Source of the DNA: a virus
Virus record (IMG/VR): IMGVR_UViG_3300032313_000840
Coordinates: 1 to 64,000 of that record
Strand: one strand, 5' to 3'
Length of the DNA stretch: 64,000 nt
In this document: positions 3,310 through 56,638 of the stretch, piece after piece
Position numbering within the stretch: position 1 is the first letter of the stretch
Layout: every line of letters begins with the position of its first letter
The notes under the pieces: generated by a model
Database searches by the model: none
What the model was told of the DNA's origin: nothing
The model's input: the letters and a program-made list of their open reading frames with translations, nothing else
Program-made: the position numbers and the translations under genes

Positions 3310-3903
3310 TCAATTCTTTTGGTGTGAAAGTTGTAGTTCAATCGAATTACGAATAGATTGGAAAATATCCATAAAATTCTTTTCTTGAATCAAAATTGGT
3401 TCAAAATCTTTGTGCCATTGCACCAACACAAAACCAACATTTATTCCTTTATTTTTTAAAGGCAAGCAAGAAAAATGTGAAATGTTTTCATCATCAAAAA
3501 AATGTCTTGCATGACTATCTGCCTGCATAGAGTCAACACAATGAATATTTGCTTTATTTTGAATAATTTTGTTTAACAAAGGAACAAACAAAGAACACTG
3601 AGTACCTTTAAGTTTGCCTACTTGAGATATATAACCTTTATGAGAAGATTCATGGGTTATTGAAAATTTCATCATAGAGATGCCATCCATGAAATATTCT
3701 CCATTGTGTAGTTGAAGAACAGTTGCCCTCATGCTGCGAGCTTCAAGTCGGAGTTCTGTAAGAAGCTCATGAATTTCTGTATGAATTTCTATGAAATTAT
3801 CAGTTTTTTTCTTAGATTTGAAAAAAGATTTAATTCCAAATCCTAAGCCGAGTAATCCTGCTACTCCATATGCTGTTTTTTCAAAAATTTCCATATAATC
3901 CAT
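3310..3903 (-). CDS. Membrane-anchored GAF-like protein
   Basis: This 197-aa protein has an N-terminal hydrophobic anchor (about residues 9-27, ending in KSFFKSKKK), a helical linker, then a globular domain with the pattern LQLHNGEYFMDG, SLFVPLLNK and GFVLVQWH. The alternation of strands resembles a GAF-type ligand-binding fold. A TATAAATA box lies 20 nt upstream with a GGAG between it and the start, so late transcription of this four-gene cluster is likely. The function is unknown. Confidence 0.5.
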   Translation of the reverse strand: MDYMEIFEKTAYGVAGLLGLGFGIKSFFKSKKKTDNFIEIHTEIHELLTELRLEARSMRATVLQLHNGEYFMDGISMMKFSITHESSHKGYISQVGKLKGTQCSLFVPLLNKIIQNKANIHCVDSMQADSHARHFFDDENISHFSCLPLKNKGINVGFVLVQWHKDFEPILIQEKNFMDIFQSIRNSIELQLSHQKN

Positions 3904-3923
3904 TGATAAACTCCATGTCTTAA

Positions 3924-3931
3924 TATTTATA
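3924..3931 (-). promoter_or_regulatory. T4-type late promoter
   Basis: TATAAATA on the minus strand, 20 nt before the ATG at 3903, with a GGAG ribosome-binding site between them. It is one of the few late promoters here with a conventional leader. Confidence 0.6.
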
Positions 3932-3932
3932 T

Positions 3933-3960
3933 TTGACAGGGCGGCAATATGTGATAGAAT
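3933..3960 (+). promoter_or_regulatory. Sigma70-like promoter of the replication operon
   Basis: TTGACA (3933-3938), 16-nt spacer, TAGAAT (3955-3960), with the ATG at 3969. The predicted +1 is within two bases of the start codon. It is divergent from the late promoter at 3924-3931. Confidence 0.75.
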
Positions 3961-3968
3961 GAGATTCT

Positions 3969-4292
3969 ATGATGACAAGAGAACAATTATTTAAATTACA
4001 CGAAGAAATTTGCAAGGAAGCCATCGAACTTATGCGTAAAAAGAACAATGATTACGCATCTGGCGCAGATCCTTTCATGAATTTCCGAAGAGCGGAATAT
4101 TTAGGTTTTGCAACTGCAGAACTTGGTGTTCTTATTCGTATGACCGATAAGATGTCAAGAATCTCCACTTATTTGAATAAGGGAGAACTTTCATTGCAGA
4201 ATGAGAGTGTTTATGATGCAATTGTTGACCTAATTAATTACAGTGTTATACTTGCAGGGCTTCTCAAAGATAGAGAACCCAAGAAAGACTAA
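3969..4292 (+). CDS. Nucleotide modification associated domain 1 (Nmad1/DUF1599) protein
   Basis: The 107-aa chain matches the Nmad1 (DUF1599) pattern: KKNNDYASGADPFMNFRRAE, then GVLIRMTDKMSRIS and a helical DAIVDLINYSVILAG. The family occurs in phages and was named from association with nucleotide or DNA base modification genes; the reaction is not established. It is the first gene after a strong promoter and overlaps the DNA polymerase start by one base, so it is co-expressed with replication. Start 3969 or the next ATG at 3972 are both possible. Confidence 0.8.
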   Translation: MMTREQLFKLHEEICKEAIELMRKKNNDYASGADPFMNFRRAEYLGFATAELGVLIRMTDKMSRISTYLNKGELSLQNESVYDAIVDLINYSVILAGLLKDREPKKD

Positions 4293-6799
4293 TGAAATTT
4301 TATACTGCCTGTGCTTTGAAGGGGAACAAGGTTCTTGTTCGTGGCTATAACAATGGTGTTCGATTTACCGATACCATTGCTTACAAGCCATCCTTATACA
4401 TCAAATCCGATAGCCAATCCAAGTACAGGACTCTCAACAATGTTAACGTCAAACGCATGAAGTTTGACACGTTGTATGATTGCCGTCAATTCCTAGACCA
4501 ATACAGAGACCTAGATGATTGCCCGATTTATGGAAACACTGATTTCGTCACTCAATATCTCATGGAGACTTATCCGACTGAGGTGGAATACGATCTTTCC
4601 AAGATCAAAGTAGCCTACCTAGACTTGGAGTGTGAAACTGAGGGAGGCTTTCCAGATCTAGACAACCCAAATGAACGAATCAACCTTGTGACTATTCGTA
4701 TCTGCGGTGTCAACTATGTTCTTACTATGAAGCCACTCACCTTGCCAGACTGCAAGGTTGTTATGGTTACATCAGAGAAGGAACTGATCAAGAAGATCTT
4801 CGATATCCTTGCTAAGGAAGACATAGATATTCTTACAGGATGGAACATCAAACTCTTCGATATGCCCTATATAATAGGTAGGGCAAAGCTTTTCTTTGAG
4901 GAAAAAGAGATTCAGAGTTGGATGCCGTTTGGTTTGATGAAGATGCGTGAGACTAATATTGGTGGCAAGGATTATAAACTCTTTGAGTTTCCCGGCTACA
5001 CGATCCTAGACTACATGGATCTTTATAAGAAGTTCAGGCTTGTTCCCCGAGAAAGTTACGCTCTTAACTTTATTGCAAAGGCGGAACTAAATGCTCAAAA
5101 ACTGGATTACAGCGAGTATGGATCTTTGCGGGAGTTCTATACGAAAGATTTTCAAAGGTTTGCGGAGTATAACGTCCAAGATGTCGTGCTGGTTGAACAG
5201 CTTGACAATAAGCTCCGACTGATTGATTTGGCGATCTCCATTGCCTACGAGGCAAAGATCACATTTGATACGGTCTTCTTCGCCACTCGGATTTGGGAGA
5301 CCATTTGCTGTGACTATCTTGCCAAGCAATACATCGTTCCACCTCTAAAGACCAAGTATGCCAAGGATGAGCAGTTTGTTGGTGCATATGTCAAGGAAGT
5401 TGTACCGGGACTCTACAAGAACATAGTCAGTTTTGACGCAACCAGCCTGTATCCATCCATCATCATGTCATGGAACATTTCTCCTGAAACTTGCATTCAC
5501 AAAGATTCATCACTCAATGCTGATGATTTCCTTCGCAGCAAGCGTAAGGAGATTCCAGATATTATTGAAGATGCTGAAAGCCAGGATGCATGTGTTACCT
5601 GCAATGGTTCTTTCTTTACCCGTAAAATCAAGGGCTTTATTCCAATCCTTATTGAAACCACTTTCAATCAGCGTAAGGAAGCCAAAAACAAGATGATGGA
5701 ACTGAAGAAGGAATATGAGGAAACCAAAAACAAGGATCTTCTTCCTCGTATATCTGCTCTAGATATTCGTCAGACCGTAAAGAAGATTTTGGCAAACAGC
5801 CTGTATGGTTGCCTTGGTAATCCTGCATTTACATATTCATCTCCTGAACTGGCTACGGCAGTTACCGTGACTGGGCAAGTCATCATTCGTACTGCTGAGA
5901 ATTCCATGAATGACTATATCAACAAGGTCATGAAGAATGAAGAGCCCAAAGATTATGTTATTGCAGTCGATACCGATTCTGTTTATTTGAATCTTGATGA
6001 AGTTATCACAAAGGTTTCCAGCAAGACTCCAATTGAAGATATCACTTCTTTCGTAGATGACATTTGTGAAAACAATATTCAAAAGCAACTAAACAAGGTC
6101 ATGAAAGATTTGACATGGATGCTTGGTTGTACTAATAACAAGATCTCCTTCAAGCGTGAAGCAATTGCTTCTGCAGGAATGTTTATTGCCAAGAAGCGAT
6201 ATGCATTGCTTGTACACGACAATGAAGGAATTAGATATGCTGAACCTCAATTGAAGATCATGGGACTTGAGACTGCAAGAAGCAGCACTCCTGCAGTCGT
6301 CCGCGATAAGTTGAAGGACTGCATCATGATCATCCTGACCAAGACCCCCGAGGAGTTGCGCGAGTTTGTGAATATATTCTCTGATGAATTTATGAAGATG
6401 CCTATAGAAGATGTCGCTGCTCCTCGGGGTGTCAAGGGTATCAGCAAATATACTGATTCCTCAGACATCTATAAGTCTGGTACTCCAATTGCCACCAAGG
6501 CTGCATTGTTACACAATGCATACACCAAAAAGATAAAGTTGGATAAGGAGATTCCACCGATCAAGGAAAACGACAAGATTAAGTTTGTTTTTGTCCGTGT
6601 TCCCAATCCTTATGGCATGGGTGGCAGAGATGCCGTGATGGGTTTCATCGGCAAGCCTCCTCCACAATTTAATCTTGAAAAATATATTGATCGAAAGAAA
6701 CAATTTGAAAAAACTTTTGGTGAGCCTTTAGACAATATTTTACAAGCCATCAAGTGGTCTATAAATGAACAAGTCACACTTGAATCCTTCTTTGGTTGA
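4292..6799 (+). CDS. DNA polymerase, family B (T4 gp43-like)
   Basis: The 835-aa replicative polymerase has all family B landmarks. Exonuclease motifs are Exo I YLDLECE (about residue 110), Exo II TGWNIKLFDMPYIIGRA and Exo III YNVQDVVLV. Polymerase motif A is DATSLYPSII, motif B is KKILANSLYGCLG and motif C is DTDSVYL. Exo and Pol acidic residues are intact, so proofreading and synthesis should both work. It is slightly shorter than T4 gp43. No intein or intron interrupts it. It lies directly downstream of the Nmad1 gene in the replication operon. Confidence 0.97.
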   Translation: MKFYTACALKGNKVLVRGYNNGVRFTDTIAYKPSLYIKSDSQSKYRTLNNVNVKRMKFDTLYDCRQFLDQYRDLDDCPIYGNTDFVTQYLMETYPTEVEYDLSKIKVAYLDLECETEGGFPDLDNPNERINLVTIRICGVNYVLTMKPLTLPDCKVVMVTSEKELIKKIFDILAKEDIDILTGWNIKLFDMPYIIGRAKLFFEEKEIQSWMPFGLMKMRETNIGGKDYKLFEFPGYTILDYMDLYKKFRLVPRESYALNFIAKAELNAQKLDYSEYGSLREFYTKDFQRFAEYNVQDVVLVEQLDNKLRLIDLAISIAYEAKITFDTVFFATRIWETICCDYLAKQYIVPPLKTKYAKDEQFVGAYVKEVVPGLYKNIVSFDATSLYPSIIMSWNISPETCIHKDSSLNADDFLRSKRKEIPDIIEDAESQDACVTCNGSFFTRKIKGFIPILIETTFNQRKEAKNKMMELKKEYEETKNKDLLPRISALDIRQTVKKILANSLYGCLGNPAFTYSSPELATAVTVTGQVIIRTAENSMNDYINKVMKNEEPKDYVIAVDTDSVYLNLDEVITKVSSKTPIEDITSFVDDICENNIQKQLNKVMKDLTWMLGCTNNKISFKREAIASAGMFIAKKRYALLVHDNEGIRYAEPQLKIMGLETARSSTPAVVRDKLKDCIMIILTKTPEELREFVNIFSDEFMKMPIEDVAAPRGVKGISKYTDSSDIYKSGTPIATKAALLHNAYTKKIKLDKEIPPIKENDKIKFVFVRVPNPYGMGGRDAVMGFIGKPPPQFNLEKYIDRKKQFEKTFGEPLDNILQAIKWSINEQVTLESFFG

Positions 6800-6807
6800 G
6801 GTATAAT
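6780..6807 (+). promoter_or_regulatory. Sigma70-like promoter (leaderless)
   Basis: TTGAAT (6780-6785), 16-nt spacer, TATAAT (6802-6807), six bases, ATG at 6814. It overlaps the end of the polymerase gene and fixes the start of the next gene. Confidence 0.75.
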
Positions 6808-6813
6808 ACAAAT

Positions 6814-7065
6814 ATGGGTGAAATTAAATATACACAAAGTCCGCAATTGACTAAACAAGACATTGATTTTGATGAACTTCTTACAGACATAAGAAAAGAC
6901 ATGAAAAGACCTAGATATCAGTCAAAGCATACTCATGTAGATTTTGAAGTATTCAAACTAAAAGATGCAATAATTAAGCAATTGCAAGAAGAAAATGCTG
7001 CTTTGAAGGAAGAGATTGCAGATCTTAAGATGGATCTCAAGACTTTCATTGAAATGGAAAGTTAA
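6814..7065 (+). CDS. Small coiled-coil protein
   Basis: This 83-aa protein of unknown function has an acidic N-terminal half and a C-terminal coiled coil (KLKDAIIKQLQEENAALKEE with heptad leucines). I place the start at 6814 rather than an upstream in-frame ATG because a TATAAT box ends exactly six bases before it, the spacing seen at many other genes here. It lies between polymerase and uvsX, so a replication accessory role is possible but not shown. Confidence 0.6.
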   Translation: MGEIKYTQSPQLTKQDIDFDELLTDIRKDMKRPRYQSKHTHVDFEVFKLKDAIIKQLQEENAALKEEIADLKMDLKTFIEMES

Positions 7066-27367: not shown

Positions 27368-27394
27368 ATAACAAAACCCCTTTTGAGGGGGGTT
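27368..27394 (-). terminator. Intrinsic terminator of the tmRNA coding piece
   Basis: On the minus strand AACCCC/GGGGTT closes an 8-nt loop, followed by TTTTGTTATTTG. Confidence 0.75.
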
Positions 27395-27555
27395 CAGGGT
27401 CGATTCAGATGCGGGAGACCAAACCCCACTGCTTCAAGCAGCCATTGCTAATTGGTTAGCAATTATTTTTTGCAACTGTTTATTTGCGACACTTGTTACC
27501 CGTGTCGGGTATCTCCTTCTTCATTACTTTGCGCCAATCTATTCCTTTCGACCCC
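27395..27555 (-). ncRNA. tmRNA coding piece with proteolysis-tag reading frame
   Basis: After the 5' acceptor strand comes pseudoknot PK1. ACCC 27510-27507 pairs with GGGT 27501-27498, and GACAC 27506-27502 pairs with GTGTC 27492-27488. The resume codon GCA (27487-27485) follows directly. The tag frame 27487-27434 encodes ANKQLQKIIANQLAMAA and ends in TGA, itself in a CTGCT/AGCAG hairpin. The tag is longer than the 10-residue E. coli tag and ends in AMAA, close to the ALAA that ClpXP recognises. The 3' end is taken at the following terminator and is approximate. Confidence 0.87.
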
Positions 27556-27651
27556 GGTGACCCGAAGCCTAGGACTTCGGGAAATGCCCCGCTGCTACGA
27601 GGACTTGATTCGCCGTTTTCAGAGGATTGCAGATTCTCTGACTTAGGCTAA

Positions 27652-27715
27652 TGGAGTCGGGGGGATTCGAACCCCCGTCTTGTACGCATTTCAATCCAAT
27701 ATCAACAATACCATT
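27652..27715 (-). ncRNA. tmRNA acceptor piece (tRNA-like 3' domain)
   Basis: The T stem GGGGG/CCCCC (27676-27672 and 27664-27660) closes the canonical loop TTCGAAT. It is followed by the 3' acceptor strand CGACTCC and discriminator A27652. CCA is not encoded. Upstream TGCGT can pair with GCGCA of the coding piece (P2). The 5' end is approximate because tRNA-Tyr ends at 27724. Confidence 0.8.
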
Positions 27716-27723
27716 TTATTTAG

Positions 27724-27805
27724 TGCGAGCTGAGGGATTCGAACCCCCGTAGGCGATGCCATCTGATTTACAGTCAGACCTCGTTGGCCACTTGAGTAAA
27801 CTCGC
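27724..27805 (-). tRNA. tRNA-Tyr (anticodon GTA)
   Basis: Acceptor GCGAGTT pairs with AGCTCGC; anticodon loop CTGTAAA between TCTGA and TCAGA; long variable arm; T arm with GGTTCGAATCC. CCA is not encoded. Confidence 0.93.
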
Positions 27806-27962
27806 TAAAGTCGGGCATTGAATCCTTTTTCCAGCCCTGATCAAGGTCTGGGAAGTATAGTACTAGCCCTGCGCGTTCTTCTAAGGTATTCCGCGCCCCA
27901 CCTCTGATTACTGCTAGGGTATCAGTTATCCCTATACAGTTTTATAGTCTTTAATTGTCAAA
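27806..27962 (-). other. Unexplained structured stretch between tRNA-Gly and tRNA-Tyr
   Basis: These 157 nt have no ORF. On the minus strand it opens with TTGACA (27961-27956) right after tRNA-Gly and contains nested inverted repeats: CTGAT...ATCAG, GCGCG...CGCGC and CCAG...CTGG. It may be a structured RNA, a tRNA-processing spacer or a decayed tRNA. I could not fit it to a cloverleaf. Confidence 0.35.
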
Positions 27963-28034
27963 AGCGGGAGAAGGGATTCGAACCCTCGACACTTGGTTTG
28001 GAAAACCAACACTCTACCACTGAGTTACACCCGC
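27963..28034 (-). tRNA. tRNA-Gly (anticodon TCC)
   Basis: Acceptor GCGGGTG pairs with (C)TCCCGC; D arm with AGTGGTAGAGT; anticodon stem TTGGT/ACCAA around TTTCCAA; T arm GAGGG-TTCGAAT-CCCTT. CCA is not encoded. Confidence 0.93.
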
Positions 28035-28172: not shown

Positions 28173-28200
28173 AGTATATATCATGGATACATTAAGTCAA
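28173..28200 (-). promoter_or_regulatory. Sigma70-like promoter (leaderless)
   Basis: TTGACT (28200-28195), 16 nt, TATACT (28178-28173), 6 nt, ATG at 28166. It lies back to back with a late promoter for the plus strand. Confidence 0.8.
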
Positions 28201-46057: not shown

Positions 46058-48235
46058 TTACCTGCCCTTGCGATCCCGGAACTTCATGCCCTCCGGGAAG
46101 CAGGGGAGTCCGTAGATCCCGGAGTCCATCTTGCGGATGGGCTGACCCGCCACGATGTCCACATACCGGGTGAGGAACACGCGGCTACCTGCCCGCTTGC
46201 CCATCGTCTTGATGAACTGGTTCTTCACCTTGGTGAAGTTACCTCCGGTGGCAATCGCCTCCTCGTCCTTGACGGGCTTCGGGGTCTGAATGAGGAAGTA
46301 CGAATCGTAGCCGGGGAAGGTATCTTCGTGCAGGACGAGGCATCCCTCCTTGAACGCTTCAGCCGCAGCCTTGTACCGCTCCGAATCTCCAACGGTCACA
46401 CCACCCTTGTAGTGATGGGAGATCGAATCGGCATTCTTCTGCTTCTCCTGTTCGCTCAAGCAGAACTGCTCAAAGCAGCGTTCCGTCAGGATACGAGTGG
46501 GCATCACATACATTCCAACGCATCGGGCGTTCAACTTGGTGCGGAGCGAATTGAGCATGGCGCAGATGACGCCATCGGGCAGATTCGTCCTGCCGTTCTT
46601 GTTGTCGATGACGGTGACCGTATCAAGGATCTCGTTCGTCACGGTGAGGGAAGTACCTTCGCCGTACCAGTAGACTCCATCCTCCTTGGAGGTGCTGATG
46701 TGGTTGGGGCAACCGTCCGTCACGACCATGATCGTGGGGATCTGAATGTTGTTCTCCTGCACCCATCCCGCCATAAACTGGGAAGTGAGGGCAATGCACT
46801 CCACCGTGGGCGTACCGTTCAGGGTGAGGTAACGGGAAGTGGGGCGGGTCTGCTGCACATAGGTTTCGTAGATGTACGCACACAGACGCTCACGCTTGGC
46901 CGCATCGTCCTTGGAGGAGGCAATGTTCAGCAGCCTAGCCGTCCCGATGTGCATACCCGTGGGGCAGTCACGATTCAAAGCCTGCGCGCACCATTCACGG
47001 TCGAACTCGTAGGAGAACTTGTCGGGGTTTTGCTTCCTCCATGCATCACACGCAGCCTGATACTCGGGATCAAGGTTGCCGTAGACATCGGTGTAGCCGA
47101 ACACCTCAAACGGGATCTTCGCCTTCTCGCAGAACCACACCAACTGGAGAACCTGAAGGTAGGCGTGGCCGATGGTCTGACCCATGCTGCCGCTGAAGTC
47201 AAGCATGAACACGATGCCGTGGTTCTTGCCGTCCTGCTTGACGATCTTCGACAGGAAGATATCGTCATGGGTGCGGTACTGGTGGAGGCGGTCAAGGTTC
47301 AGCATCCCGGTCTGCTTCGGACGCTCACGGCGGATCTCGTCCGCAGCCTTCTTGCGCTCAAACTGCGCGGCCATCTGACGGACGAACGCATCGGACTCAC
47401 GGACGAACTGGCGGTACTCCTCAAGGAGCAGCGGCCTGTTGCTGTTGCCCTCGTAGTCGTTGAGGATGGTTTCCGTGCTGATGATGTGCTTGGACAGATC
47501 CTTGACCCCGGTGATGGTGACCACCGCGTCCTGATACTGCGAACCGTCCTTGCGGCGGAAGTCACCGGGGACATCGTTCTTGTCGCCCATGATCTTGTCC
47601 TGCTCCTTCTCACCCTGCTTGCCACCCTTGGCAGCAGCAGCCTCCATCTCCTCGCGCATCTTCTTCATGGAGGGGTGGTCGTACAGGAACTTGGCGACCT
47701 CAAAGACCTGATCGAAATTGACCACACCGTCCACCATGTCCACGACCTCCTGCTCCGTCCCCTCAAAGGTCATGGGGATGAAGCCGGGGATGCCGAACTT
47801 GAAGTGAATGTTGAGACGATTGAGGAACCCGGCCTTCGCCAAGTCCATCTTCTTGAAGCCGAACAGGTCAAGGTCTGCGATCTCCTTGTAGCCAAGGAAG
47901 AAGTCACGGCGAGTGCCGGGGAACTTCTGCTTCATCAACTTCTCGATGCGGACATCTTCGATGATGTTGGCGATCCGCTGAAGGAGCATGGCGTTGTAGC
48001 CGTCCGCCTCCGCAGCCTTCAACAACTCCTCGCTGCGCTCGTAGGGAGTCCACATGGCGTGGCTGATCTCGTGGGCCACGAGCATGGTCTTGACGGTTTC
48101 GGTCACATCCCACATCGGCATGATGAGGTGACGCGACTTGACATCGAACGATGCGGTTTCAGCGTCCTTGGAGAAGGAGAACGAAATGTTCTCGGATGCG
48201 AGAGCCTTGGCAAAGATGGAGAGAGAGGTGTTCAT
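46058..48235 (-). CDS. Metallopeptidase-like/VWA-domain protein
   Basis: This is a 725-aa protein. Near the N-terminus VAHEISHAMW gives the zinc-peptidase motif HEISH at residues 55-59. A long charged middle leads to a von Willebrand A domain with MIDAS motif DFSGS at about residues 346-350 and VVTDGCPNH further on. This resembles VWA proteins with N-terminal putative metallopeptidase domain (DUF2201 type) that partner MoxR ATPases. The MoxR-like gene lies one gene upstream on the same strand. GC-rich codon use. The start at 48235 is fixed by a leaderless promoter. Role: probable remodelling or activation of a target complex. Confidence 0.82.
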   Translation of the reverse strand: MNTSLSIFAKALASENISFSFSKDAETASFDVKSRHLIMPMWDVTETVKTMLVAHEISHAMWTPYERSEELLKAAEADGYNAMLLQRIANIIEDVRIEKLMKQKFPGTRRDFFLGYKEIADLDLFGFKKMDLAKAGFLNRLNIHFKFGIPGFIPMTFEGTEQEVVDMVDGVVNFDQVFEVAKFLYDHPSMKKMREEMEAAAAKGGKQGEKEQDKIMGDKNDVPGDFRRKDGSQYQDAVVTITGVKDLSKHIISTETILNDYEGNSNRPLLLEEYRQFVRESDAFVRQMAAQFERKKAADEIRRERPKQTGMLNLDRLHQYRTHDDIFLSKIVKQDGKNHGIVFMLDFSGSMGQTIGHAYLQVLQLVWFCEKAKIPFEVFGYTDVYGNLDPEYQAACDAWRKQNPDKFSYEFDREWCAQALNRDCPTGMHIGTARLLNIASSKDDAAKRERLCAYIYETYVQQTRPTSRYLTLNGTPTVECIALTSQFMAGWVQENNIQIPTIMVVTDGCPNHISTSKEDGVYWYGEGTSLTVTNEILDTVTVIDNKNGRTNLPDGVICAMLNSLRTKLNARCVGMYVMPTRILTERCFEQFCLSEQEKQKNADSISHHYKGGVTVGDSERYKAAAEAFKEGCLVLHEDTFPGYDSYFLIQTPKPVKDEEAIATGGNFTKVKNQFIKTMGKRAGSRVFLTRYVDIVAGQPIRKMDSGIYGLPCFPEGMKFRDRKGR

Positions 48236-48241
48236 GCGCAC

Positions 48242-48270
48242 ATTGTAACCGATGCGGGGGAAGAAGTCAA
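48242..48270 (-). promoter_or_regulatory. Sigma70-like promoter of the VWA gene (leaderless)
   Basis: TTGACT (48270-48265), 17 nt, TACAAT (48247-48242), 6 nt, ATG at 48235. Confidence 0.88.
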
Positions 48271-48291
48271 CCCACAAACAAAGTTTATTTT

Positions 48292-48665: not shown

Positions 48666-50015
48666 TTAGGCGTTCATGGCGTACTGGGTGTCGGTGTCGG
48701 GGTTGGACAACTTATCCAACTGTGCTTTCAATTCTGCGATCTTCTTCTGCTCTGCGGTCAGAGAGTTCACCGGGTTGCTCACCGGGGCATCCTTCATCCC
48801 CTCCGGGACAGGGAGGATCGTGGGGTCGATCTTCGTGTAGAGGTTGAAGAACGCCTCCTTCGTGGACGCATCGAACCGCGTCAGCGTCAACTTGATGGCC
48901 TTCTCCTTGTCGCCAAAGATGGCGAACGCCTTGCACACTTCCTCCAAGCGGCGGGTGGTGATGATGTCATCCAGTCCGCCCTCCTTGAAGCCCATGCGGA
49001 TCGTTTCCGCCCACTTCGTGAGGTACTGGGCGAACTCCTTGTCCTCCTTGCCGTATGCCTTCATCTTGCGGATGATGATACGCGCTTCGATGGTGCGATC
49101 CGCGTAGTCCTGCTCAAACCAGTAGGAGAAGCGGTCAAGGAACGCCTCGTTCATGCAGCGCGTACCCACGAACCGATCAGACTCGCCCTTGCCCTTGGTG
49201 TTGGCAGTCGCCACCACATTGAAGCCGGAAGCGGGCTTGATGAACATACCGATCTTCTTGATGTAGATGCCCTTGCCCTCAAGCACGGGCTGAAGGCACA
49301 TCATGCGCTCCGTCCCGAGGTCGATCTCGTCCAACAGGAGGATAGAGCCGCGCTGCATGGCCTGAACCACGCCACCGAACACGAACTTCGTTTCGCCGTT
49401 GACGAGGCGGAAGCCACCGATGAGGTCATCCTCGTCCGTTTCGGCGGTGATGTTGACGCGAATGCACTCGCGGCCCGTGGAGGCGCAAATCTGCTCCACC
49501 ATCGTGGTCTTGCCGTTGCCGGACATACCCGTGATGTAGACGGGAGCGAACTGCTTGGAGGCGAGGATGGTGGAGATGTCATCGTGGTGACCCCACGGAA
49601 CGAAAGTCTCGTTCTTGACGGGGACGAGCGAAACATCGGAGGACGGCATGACGAGGTTGTAGGTGTTGCTGTTCATGTTGCTGATTGTATCACAAGTTTC
49701 GGAGGAAGTCAAGGTTTCGGAAGAAGATTCGGAAATATTTTCTTCCACGGTATCGGACTCTGCGGGATTGTATTCAAGCACGACCATCTCCGGGATGATG
49801 TACTTGCCACGACCTGCACGGCGGTTCTTGGGCTGAACCAGCCAAGCCGGGAGGACTCTGTAGGAATGCTCGCTACTAAGGGCATAGGACTGGCCAAGTG
49901 CCTCAAGGCATTGCTCACGGGTGTAGACTGCTTCCCCGATGGTCTGCGGAGTGCCGAACAGGATCTGAAGGGCATTGAGGAAGTTACGCTTGCGAATGTC
50001 GATGTTGCTGTTCAT
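48666..50015 (-). CDS. MoxR/CobS-like AAA+ ATPase
   Basis: This is a 449-aa protein. Residues 1-140 are an N-terminal adaptor with a basic MNSNIDIRKRNFL start. The AAA+ core has Walker A GMSGNGKTT (about 162-170), ETDEDDLIGGFRL, Walker B GSILLLDEID, VVATANTKGKGE (sensor 1) and RFSYWFEQDY with the arginine of sensor 2 nearby. CobS-type ATPases power cobaltochelatase with the VWA protein CobT; MoxR ATPases remodel complexes with VWA partners. The VWA-metallopeptidase gene downstream supports the second reading. The tail is a short coiled coil. Confidence 0.87.
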   Translation of the reverse strand: MNSNIDIRKRNFLNALQILFGTPQTIGEAVYTREQCLEALGQSYALSSEHSYRVLPAWLVQPKNRRAGRGKYIIPEMVVLEYNPAESDTVEENISESSSETLTSSETCDTISNMNSNTYNLVMPSSDVSLVPVKNETFVPWGHHDDISTILASKQFAPVYITGMSGNGKTTMVEQICASTGRECIRVNITAETDEDDLIGGFRLVNGETKFVFGGVVQAMQRGSILLLDEIDLGTERMMCLQPVLEGKGIYIKKIGMFIKPASGFNVVATANTKGKGESDRFVGTRCMNEAFLDRFSYWFEQDYADRTIEARIIIRKMKAYGKEDKEFAQYLTKWAETIRMGFKEGGLDDIITTRRLEEVCKAFAIFGDKEKAIKLTLTRFDASTKEAFFNLYTKIDPTILPVPEGMKDAPVSNPVNSLTAEQKKIAELKAQLDKLSNPDTDTQYAMNA

Positions 50016-56223: not shown

Positions 56224-56314
56224 CCGCCCCATAAACAACCTAGCCCCGAACGAATCGGGGCAGGGACGAATCCTTTTCGGTTGGTACGAGCACCACCTCG
56301 TTAGTTTATTGAAA
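56224..56314. other. Non-coding spacer with two stem-loops
   Basis: No ORF is seen. CCCCGA...TCGGGG near 56245-56262 and ACGAG...CTCGT near 56286-56302 form hairpins between the tRNA-like sequence and composite element 6. Confidence 0.5.
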
Positions 56315-56398
56315 GCGTAGTGGAGGACTTGCACCTCTGTTGCTCTGTATCAGATTGCTTTGATCAAAGCAACCCTAGCAGCCTGACGCTGGCTACGC
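56315..56398 (-). other. Aberrant tRNA-like structure (loop reads GAT)
   Basis: Minus strand: GCGTAG at the 5' end pairs with CTACGC at the 3' end. A CAGC/GCTG arm with a 5-nt loop occupies the D position. Stem TTGCT/AGCAA closes loop TTGATCA (anticodon GAT), and GAGG/CCTC closes a T-like loop TGCAAGT. The D loop is too short and lacks GG. It may be a degenerate or specialised tRNA. Confidence 0.4.
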
Positions 56399-56407
56399 GA
56401 AGTTTGG

Positions 56408-56638
56408 TTATTTGCGAGTGTTGCCCCGGTGGCCGTAGGCCACAAACAGAATCCCATCCGGGCTTCCTGCGAACAGCATCGTGAAGAAGCAGAGGAAGCA
56501 GGTGGAGGGCAGGAGCGCCCACCACAGCCATGCGTGGGGAGCGGGTTGGGTCAGCGCCCAGACCATCACGCCCGAAACGAATGAGCCGAGGAGGATGACG
56601 AGGGCAGAGAAGAGACGATTGCGAATGGTGGTGTTCAT
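56408..56638 (-). CDS. Small two-span membrane protein
   Basis: This is a 76-aa protein with hydrophobic segments at about residues 9-29 (LFSALVILLGSFVSGVMVWA) and 36-58 (WLWWALLPSTCFLCFFTMLF) and a basic C-terminus. It starts MNTTIRN after a leaderless promoter. The tRNA-like sequence begins 10 nt after its stop. Function unknown; envelope target likely. Confidence 0.65.
   Translation of the reverse strand: MNTTIRNRLFSALVILLGSFVSGVMVWALTQPAPHAWLWWALLPSTCFLCFFTMLFAGSPDGILFVAYGHRGNTRK

Follow-up and report, generated by a model that had tools for sequence, protein, structure and literature searches.

A predicted permuted tmRNA gene in a T4-like phage clade and the structured RNAs of its intervening segment

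Phage-encoded tmRNAs and the gene in the window

Permuted tmRNAs encoded by phages have already been reported, including those of Melnitz and of SAR11 phages, and 53 two-piece structures were found among surveyed phage genomes (PMC9004378). The permuted tmRNA of Melnitz, which infects OM43, is of the alpha type and differs from that of the host lineage (PMC9004378), while mycobacteriophage DS6A encodes a tmRNA-derived RNA that is little more than a tRNA-like domain (PMC4131195). The gene described here lies on the minus strand of a 64,000-nt stretch of DNA (the window) from an IMG/VR virus record of 81,931 bases, which encodes a T4-type DNA polymerase with about 41% identity to cyanophage polymerases, as well as a DnaB-like helicase and a ribonucleotide reductase. 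Judged from its sequence, the gene is the permuted tmRNA of an uncultured T4-like phage. Such phage genes being known, the new part is the RNA inserts nested within them, and no description of nested structured RNAs in permuted tmRNA genes was found in the open-access literature.

In an Rfam covariance search, the model tmRNA_permuted (RF04321) matches positions 27712-27434 (-) with 75.2 bits (gathering score 47, E 1.3e-12), and a permuted tmRNA with the tag ANQLAMAA was also called by ARAGORN. Exactly one permuted tmRNA is present in 11 of the 12 long relatives (88-137 kb). The original prediction, which had been made from the window's letters and placed a permuted phage tmRNA here with its acceptor domain upstream of its coding domain, is borne out in both respects. 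Among the Rfam two-piece models only tmRNA_permuted exceeds its cut-off, whereas the lineage models remain under their gathering scores in the window (cyano best 24.5 bits, alpha 17 bits, beta also below). With the Melnitz tmRNA departing from its host lineage as well, the additional suggestion that this gene form limits the possible hosts is weak. No close homologue was found in named phages, and a plasmid search gave no match. Relatives were gathered through a 57-aa protein encoded next to the tmRNA and through DNA patterns of the tmRNA itself, which yielded tmRNA homologues in well over 100 IMG/VR stretches (sequences compared are numbered L).

The window resembles Melnitz (MZ577097) in that a two-piece tmRNA is encoded in a T4-like phage as one gene with the acceptor half first, and the RF04321 match of Melnitz reaches 113.4 bits. 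Unlike the window, Melnitz scores high as alpha_tmRNA, its tag (read by eye as ANDNYVPVDYALAA) is longer and of a kind usual in bacteria, and a glutamine riboswitch lies downstream of its tmRNA. With the tmRNAs of RF04321 and of the alpha (RF01849), beta (RF01850) and cyano (RF01851) models, the window gene shares the gene order, the acceptor stem and T arm, and the pseudoknot PK1 followed by the tag; it differs from them in its 8-codon, MAA-ended tag, in a resume codon that lies within a hairpin, and in the structured RNA of its intervening segment. The DS6A molecule is without a tag part, whereas the window gene has PK1, a tag and a stop helix.

The tRNA-like part is, by the pattern of its sequence changes, under selection. 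Across 14 distinct acceptor stems, 97 of 98 pairs are kept; G1-C72, G2-C71, G3-U70 and A73 are invariant, and pair 4-69 occurs as G-C, C-G, U-A and A-U. The acceptor pairing, the G3-U70 pair, A73 and the canonical T arm of the original prediction are all present, with compensatory changes in the acceptor stems of relatives. CCA is not encoded after A73 in the window.

The gene stands in an array with two tRNA genes (Table 1), and the number of promoter-like matches in the region of this array is not above that in shuffled sequences. TAAATA, the late promoter motif of T4 type, lies about 12 nt 5' of the tmRNA start (window about 27722-27712 (-)) and occurs in 42 of 76 relatives. Between tRNA-Gly and tRNA-Tyr, a long non-coding stretch with GTATAG/CTATAC ends (27810-27960 (-)) may be a structured RNA. 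Right 3' of the tmRNA terminator, a 57-aa basic protein (MPNSKQRVTSRTHRKRKTRLRNNRHK...) is encoded at 27333-27160 (-) with a strong sigma-70-like promoter in front; it is conserved clade-wide and by eye looks like a small ribosomal protein, and it has no PHROG match. Elsewhere in the window, genes at 48666-50015 and 46058-48277 (-) match PHROG 249 (porphyrin biosynthesis, cobS-like) and, for a peptidase, PHROG 459, which recalls cyanophage-like relatives of T4. The psbA photosystem family, considered as a pointer to the host, has no match in 13 records. SmpB was not found in 13 records either, that of the window and those of the 12 long relatives, whose completeness is not stated, so that SmpB could sit on missing parts; if it is absent from the phages, the host must supply it.

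Table 1. Coordinates of the features of the tRNA-tmRNA array and of type B copies (window positions unless an L number is given).
Feature	Position	Strand	Basis or detail
Promoter-like TTGACT-16-TATACT, upstream of the array	28173..28200	-	consensus match only
tRNA-Gly, upstream in the same array as the tmRNA	27963..28034	-	ARAGORN, Rfam
tRNA-Tyr, directly upstream of the tmRNA, same array	27723..27805	-	ARAGORN, Rfam
Acceptor-half RNA of the permuted tmRNA	27653..27712	-	RF04321 match start to acceptor 3' strand
T arm, canonical with TTCGA	27676-27660	-	sequence
Acceptor 3' strand CGACTCC	27659-27653	-	pairs with GGGGTCG
Discriminator A73	27652	-	A in 14/14 distinct stems
Intervening segment, 96 nt, removed in maturation by analogy	27556..27651	-	between A73 27652 and GGGG 27555
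Type A core: P1 GCC/GGC, hairpins P2 and P3, P2-P3 kissing loop	27585..27651	-	covariation; model R2 90.5 bits
Optional 3' hairpin of the insert, near-palindromic loop CCTAGG	27561..27581	-	stem sequence varies
Acceptor 5' strand GGGGTCG, start of the coding-half RNA	27549..27555	-	acceptor-stem conservation
D-loop equivalent AGGAATAGATTGG	27534..27546	-	common to 11 rows
PK1	27472..27507	-	S1 CGACAC/GTGTCG 27507-27502 / 27492-27487; S2 GTAAC/GTTGC 27499-27495 / 27476-27472
Hairpin over the resume codon, TTGCTAA/TTAGCAA	27445..27462	-	never broken in 41 relatives
Tag ANQLAMAA	27434..27460	-	GCT resume 27460-27458, then AAC CAA TTA GCA ATG GCT GCT, stop TGA
Stop-codon helix CTGCT/AGCAG	27429..27441	-	invariant in 41 relatives
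Intrinsic-terminator-like hairpin 3' of the tmRNA	27372..27395	-	kept in relatives
Type B copies	L029 ~4463-4600; L040 ~3870-3985; L090 ~6720-6880 (-); L118 ~6700-6830 (-)

Structured RNAs in the intervening segment

The segment between the two halves of the gene contains a structured RNA which the original prediction missed. Among 75 related rows, 43 hold in this slot an RNA that we call type A, 11 hold another, type B, and 20 have an empty slot of 5-13 nt; the remaining one has other content. The intervening segment of the window, which is of type A, has a folding z of -3.1. Nine of the 20 type A pairs are changed on both sides, 91.8% of cells are paired, and neither the covariation score nor the number of both-side-changed cells was reached by any of 500 shuffles. 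The optional 3' hairpin is missing from L064, L066, L110 and L126; a pseudoknot of its loop with the 5' CCTA of type A was considered, and was unsupported in L074/L123. Compared with 4227 Rfam models, type A exceeded no gathering score, the raiA-hairpin match of 17.7 bits over 40 nt (E 1.6) being far below that model's own. A remnant of tRNA-Cys, with GCA in the P2 loop as the anticodon, was rejected because the P2 loop covaries with the P3 loop (CTGTAA/TTACAG in L104) and does not keep an anticodon. An HDV-like or other ribozyme was without Rfam support.

Type B is tRNA-like but lacks a usable anticodon. An acceptor stem and a D-like arm are followed by a hairpin of 4-5 bp (loop TGASAAG), a long arm (internal loop GUAAAA/ACAAA) and a T arm; 12 of its 22 predicted pairs are changed on both sides. 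It is nested in the tmRNA genes of L090, L107, L118 and L141 and stands free in the tRNA arrays of L029, L040, L042, L050 and L174. In the latter form it is comparable to rnaC and rnaD of T4 (species 1 and 2), small stable RNAs in a T4-like tRNA cluster, of which rnaC ends in a T-arm-like hairpin; identity of these RNAs with type B was rejected, as neither matches the type B model. Type B has only chance-level matches in Rfam, and neither type was found in named phages. In bacterial genomes the sole match to the type B pattern, L182, was set aside, since it lies in an unrelated sequence context and is without the other type B features. In L175 and L178, the acceptor half and a nested type B are present and the coding half downstream is diverged or lost; the RF04321 search of the L175 record found no tmRNA. 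The intervening segment of Melnitz, about 138 nt (L184 about 1083-1270), is also long and is unrelated to that of the window. By eye it reads as an ORF which begins MFKWLSKTRLVVITRDYF and continues into the tmRNA; besides types A and B, this makes a third kind of content for the slot.

A further tRNA-like element, type C, was observed in the window at about 56300-56430 (-), with the acceptor GCGTAGT/CTACGC, a T-arm-like GGTGCAAGTCC and a hairpin whose loop is palindromic, such as GATC, TTGCAA or CTAG. It is also present in L081, L085, L104, L108, L139 and L144, often just upstream of the tmRNA, and received no ARAGORN call.

Inserts are exchanged on similar backbones, near relatives with unlike slots being L076 (A) and L118 (B), L073 (B) and L113 (empty), and L054 (empty) and L107 (B). 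On a tree of the mature halves (192 columns, no bootstrap), the slot label changes at least 12 times, compared with a shuffled mean of 28 and a least possible number of 3, and this exact count is soft because the tree is short. On the sequences compared, several slot exchanges are nevertheless hard to avoid. Tentatively, and at slightly under an even chance, the slot would be an exchangeable cassette site in this large T4-like phage clade for the unrelated RNAs A and B, which would be freed by the cuts that mature the tmRNA; we infer that the inserts are small RNAs released by tRNA-processing enzymes. Release by those cuts is the likeliest fate of the insert; its main rival is a role of the insert in the maturing cuts themselves, with type A serving the tmRNA precursor as a spacer, an RNase-binding structure or a self-cleaving RNA rather than as independent cargo. 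Model and pattern searches found type A only in the tmRNA slot, which sits between both processing sites, as a processing aid would. However, 20 of the 75 relatives are without type A, its place can be taken by type B, which also stands free, and no ribozyme family was matched, so that this role is a serious possibility about which we are doubtful.

Pseudoknot, resume codon and tag

In 41 relatives, pairing in helix S1 of PK1 reaches 97.6%, and 3 of its pairs have changed on both sides; S2 is 100% paired. A second group of 17 relatives has GTCAAC/GTTGGC as the equivalent of S2, with few compensatory changes and a structure that is 98.5% paired. The pseudoknot originally proposed as a perfect H-type was half right: its GACAC/GTGTC helix exists, with one more pair than proposed, whereas its ACCC/GGGT helix is 85% paired and has no compensatory pair.

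Downstream of PK1, the coding part comprises 8 codons, i.e. 24 nt from GCT or GCC (GGC in 2) to the stop, in all 56 distinct relatives, and it ends with M, L, I or V followed by Ala-Ala-stop in all 56. Four nucleotides before the resume codon stands A in 47 and G in 9 of them. The stretch from the PK1 strand to the resume codon varies interchangeably by one nucleotide while the tag length stays constant; L025 and L026, for instance, differ by one A in this spacer and have otherwise near-identical cores. We read the tag as ANQLAMAA because of the constant 24-nt distance, the purine at -4, the [MLIV]AA ends, and the closure of the originally proposed frame in 25 of the 56. Its hydrophobic-Ala-Ala terminus is, from its residues, degron-like. 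The spacer after PK1 is AAAAAAUAAUU in the window, 11 nt with A at -4, and AAAAAAUAGUC in E. coli, also 11 nt, where A86 sets the frame four nucleotides downstream (PMC2481249). The purine at -4 in the window clade matches this A86 rule, and the PK1 spacer agrees with the 10-12 nt expected before the resume codon of a permuted tmRNA. Nine relatives have a G at -4 and in this recall the weak A86G mutant of E. coli, which is counted against the reading. The A6 run of the window could reflect a +1 sequencing error, but this was rejected because many relatives share the 13-nt spacing without the A run.

Another resume codon, GCA at 27473-27471, directly behind GTT 27476-27474, is where the Rfam model alignment places resumption, and its context CAGUU-GCA resembles the UAGUC-GCA of E. 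coli. It would be in frame in the 12-nt class and give a 12-codon tag in some relatives, e.g. ANLIANEMAMAA in L040. In the 13-nt class it is out of frame without a common slippery site, the window reading AKNNC-stop unless a +1 shift occurs; moreover, this GCA overlaps the fully paired helix S2 and is replaced by GTA or GGC in several relatives. Resumption there is thus improbable, and GCT 27460-27458 is retained as the resume codon.

Several features depart from a usual tmRNA. Position 3 of the resume codon is always paired (C-G in 25 and U-A in 16 of 41 relatives), and therefore Leu TTA/CTA goes with GCT, and TTG/CTG with GCC. For an E. coli mutant, pairing at the resume codon has been proposed as what blocks function (PMC2481249), and the unusual resume-codon hairpin here is counted against a working tmRNA. 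Counted against it as well is the D-loop, which in the window is GGAATAGATTGG. The usual tmRNA motif at this place is GGNTTCGAC, which is typical rather than strictly defining. Most relatives have TTCGA or ATCGA at the D-loop position, several close ones included, and the D-loop therefore varies inside the clade while the remaining tmRNA is kept. These two features, and the failure to find a phage SmpB in the 13 records, would suit a tmRNA that is decaying or a decoy that titrates SmpB, as the DS6A-like molecule inhibits tmRNA (PMC4131195). Selection has nevertheless preserved the acceptor, PK1, the 8-codon frame and the stop helix in dozens of relatives, which makes decay or a decoy very unlikely.

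The least credible alternative is the originally proposed 17-codon tag ANKQLQKIIANQLAMAA resuming at GCA 27487-27485 directly after PK1: open in the window and 31 of the 56 distinct relatives, this frame meets a stop in the other 25, its GCA occurs in only 4 of 56 with the window among them, and the G of that codon, rather than following PK1 by one base, is the last base of S1 and is paired there in 41 of 41 aligned relatives. The predicted tmRNA as a whole survives, with its model match and its pairing kept, whereas its specific tag and half of its specific pseudoknot fail.

Proposed function and implications

The explanation which accounts best for the locus, a working two-piece tmRNA with the tag ANQLAMAA and an insert slot used as a cassette site, is in our judgement very probably correct. 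The precursor is probably made together with the neighbouring tRNAs, and host tRNA-processing enzymes would cut it in front of the coding half (27555) and behind the acceptor half (27652), where CCA would be added. The two pieces would then pair, be charged with alanine through G3-U70 and, together with host SmpB, rescue stalled ribosomes. Translation would resume at GCT 27460, 11 nt past PK1, in the frame set by the purine four nucleotides upstream, and add the tag ANQLAMAA, whose degron-like terminus may lead to degradation of the tagged proteins. A mature RNA of two pieces, its charging with alanine, the use of SmpB from the host, and the rescue and tagging reaction are expected here because of the anatomy of the gene and the established biology of the family. 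The segment to be excised is more than filler and carries a separate structured RNA, and the slot would serve this clade as a cassette site for small RNAs of the phages. Redirecting or supplementing host rescue, as suggested originally, would be plausible, with SmpB coming from the host; the tmRNA may spare the phage itself, remove truncated phage proteins or assist host takeover.

Phage tmRNAs bear on a known, little-tested idea, namely that a virus may bring its own ribosome rescue, and on the purpose for which it would do so. This clade shows how easily a tag can be misread from a single sequence and, with over 100 contig stretches and 56 distinct tag regions, offers a large natural dataset for tag length, the pseudoknot and the resume-codon rule. 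Moreover, types A and B are two new covarying RNA families with models ready for testing. The nested inserts point to a capacity of two-piece tmRNA genes to harbour a further RNA in the part that is discarded; if the cassette reading is true, RNA genes would here be nested inside another RNA gene.
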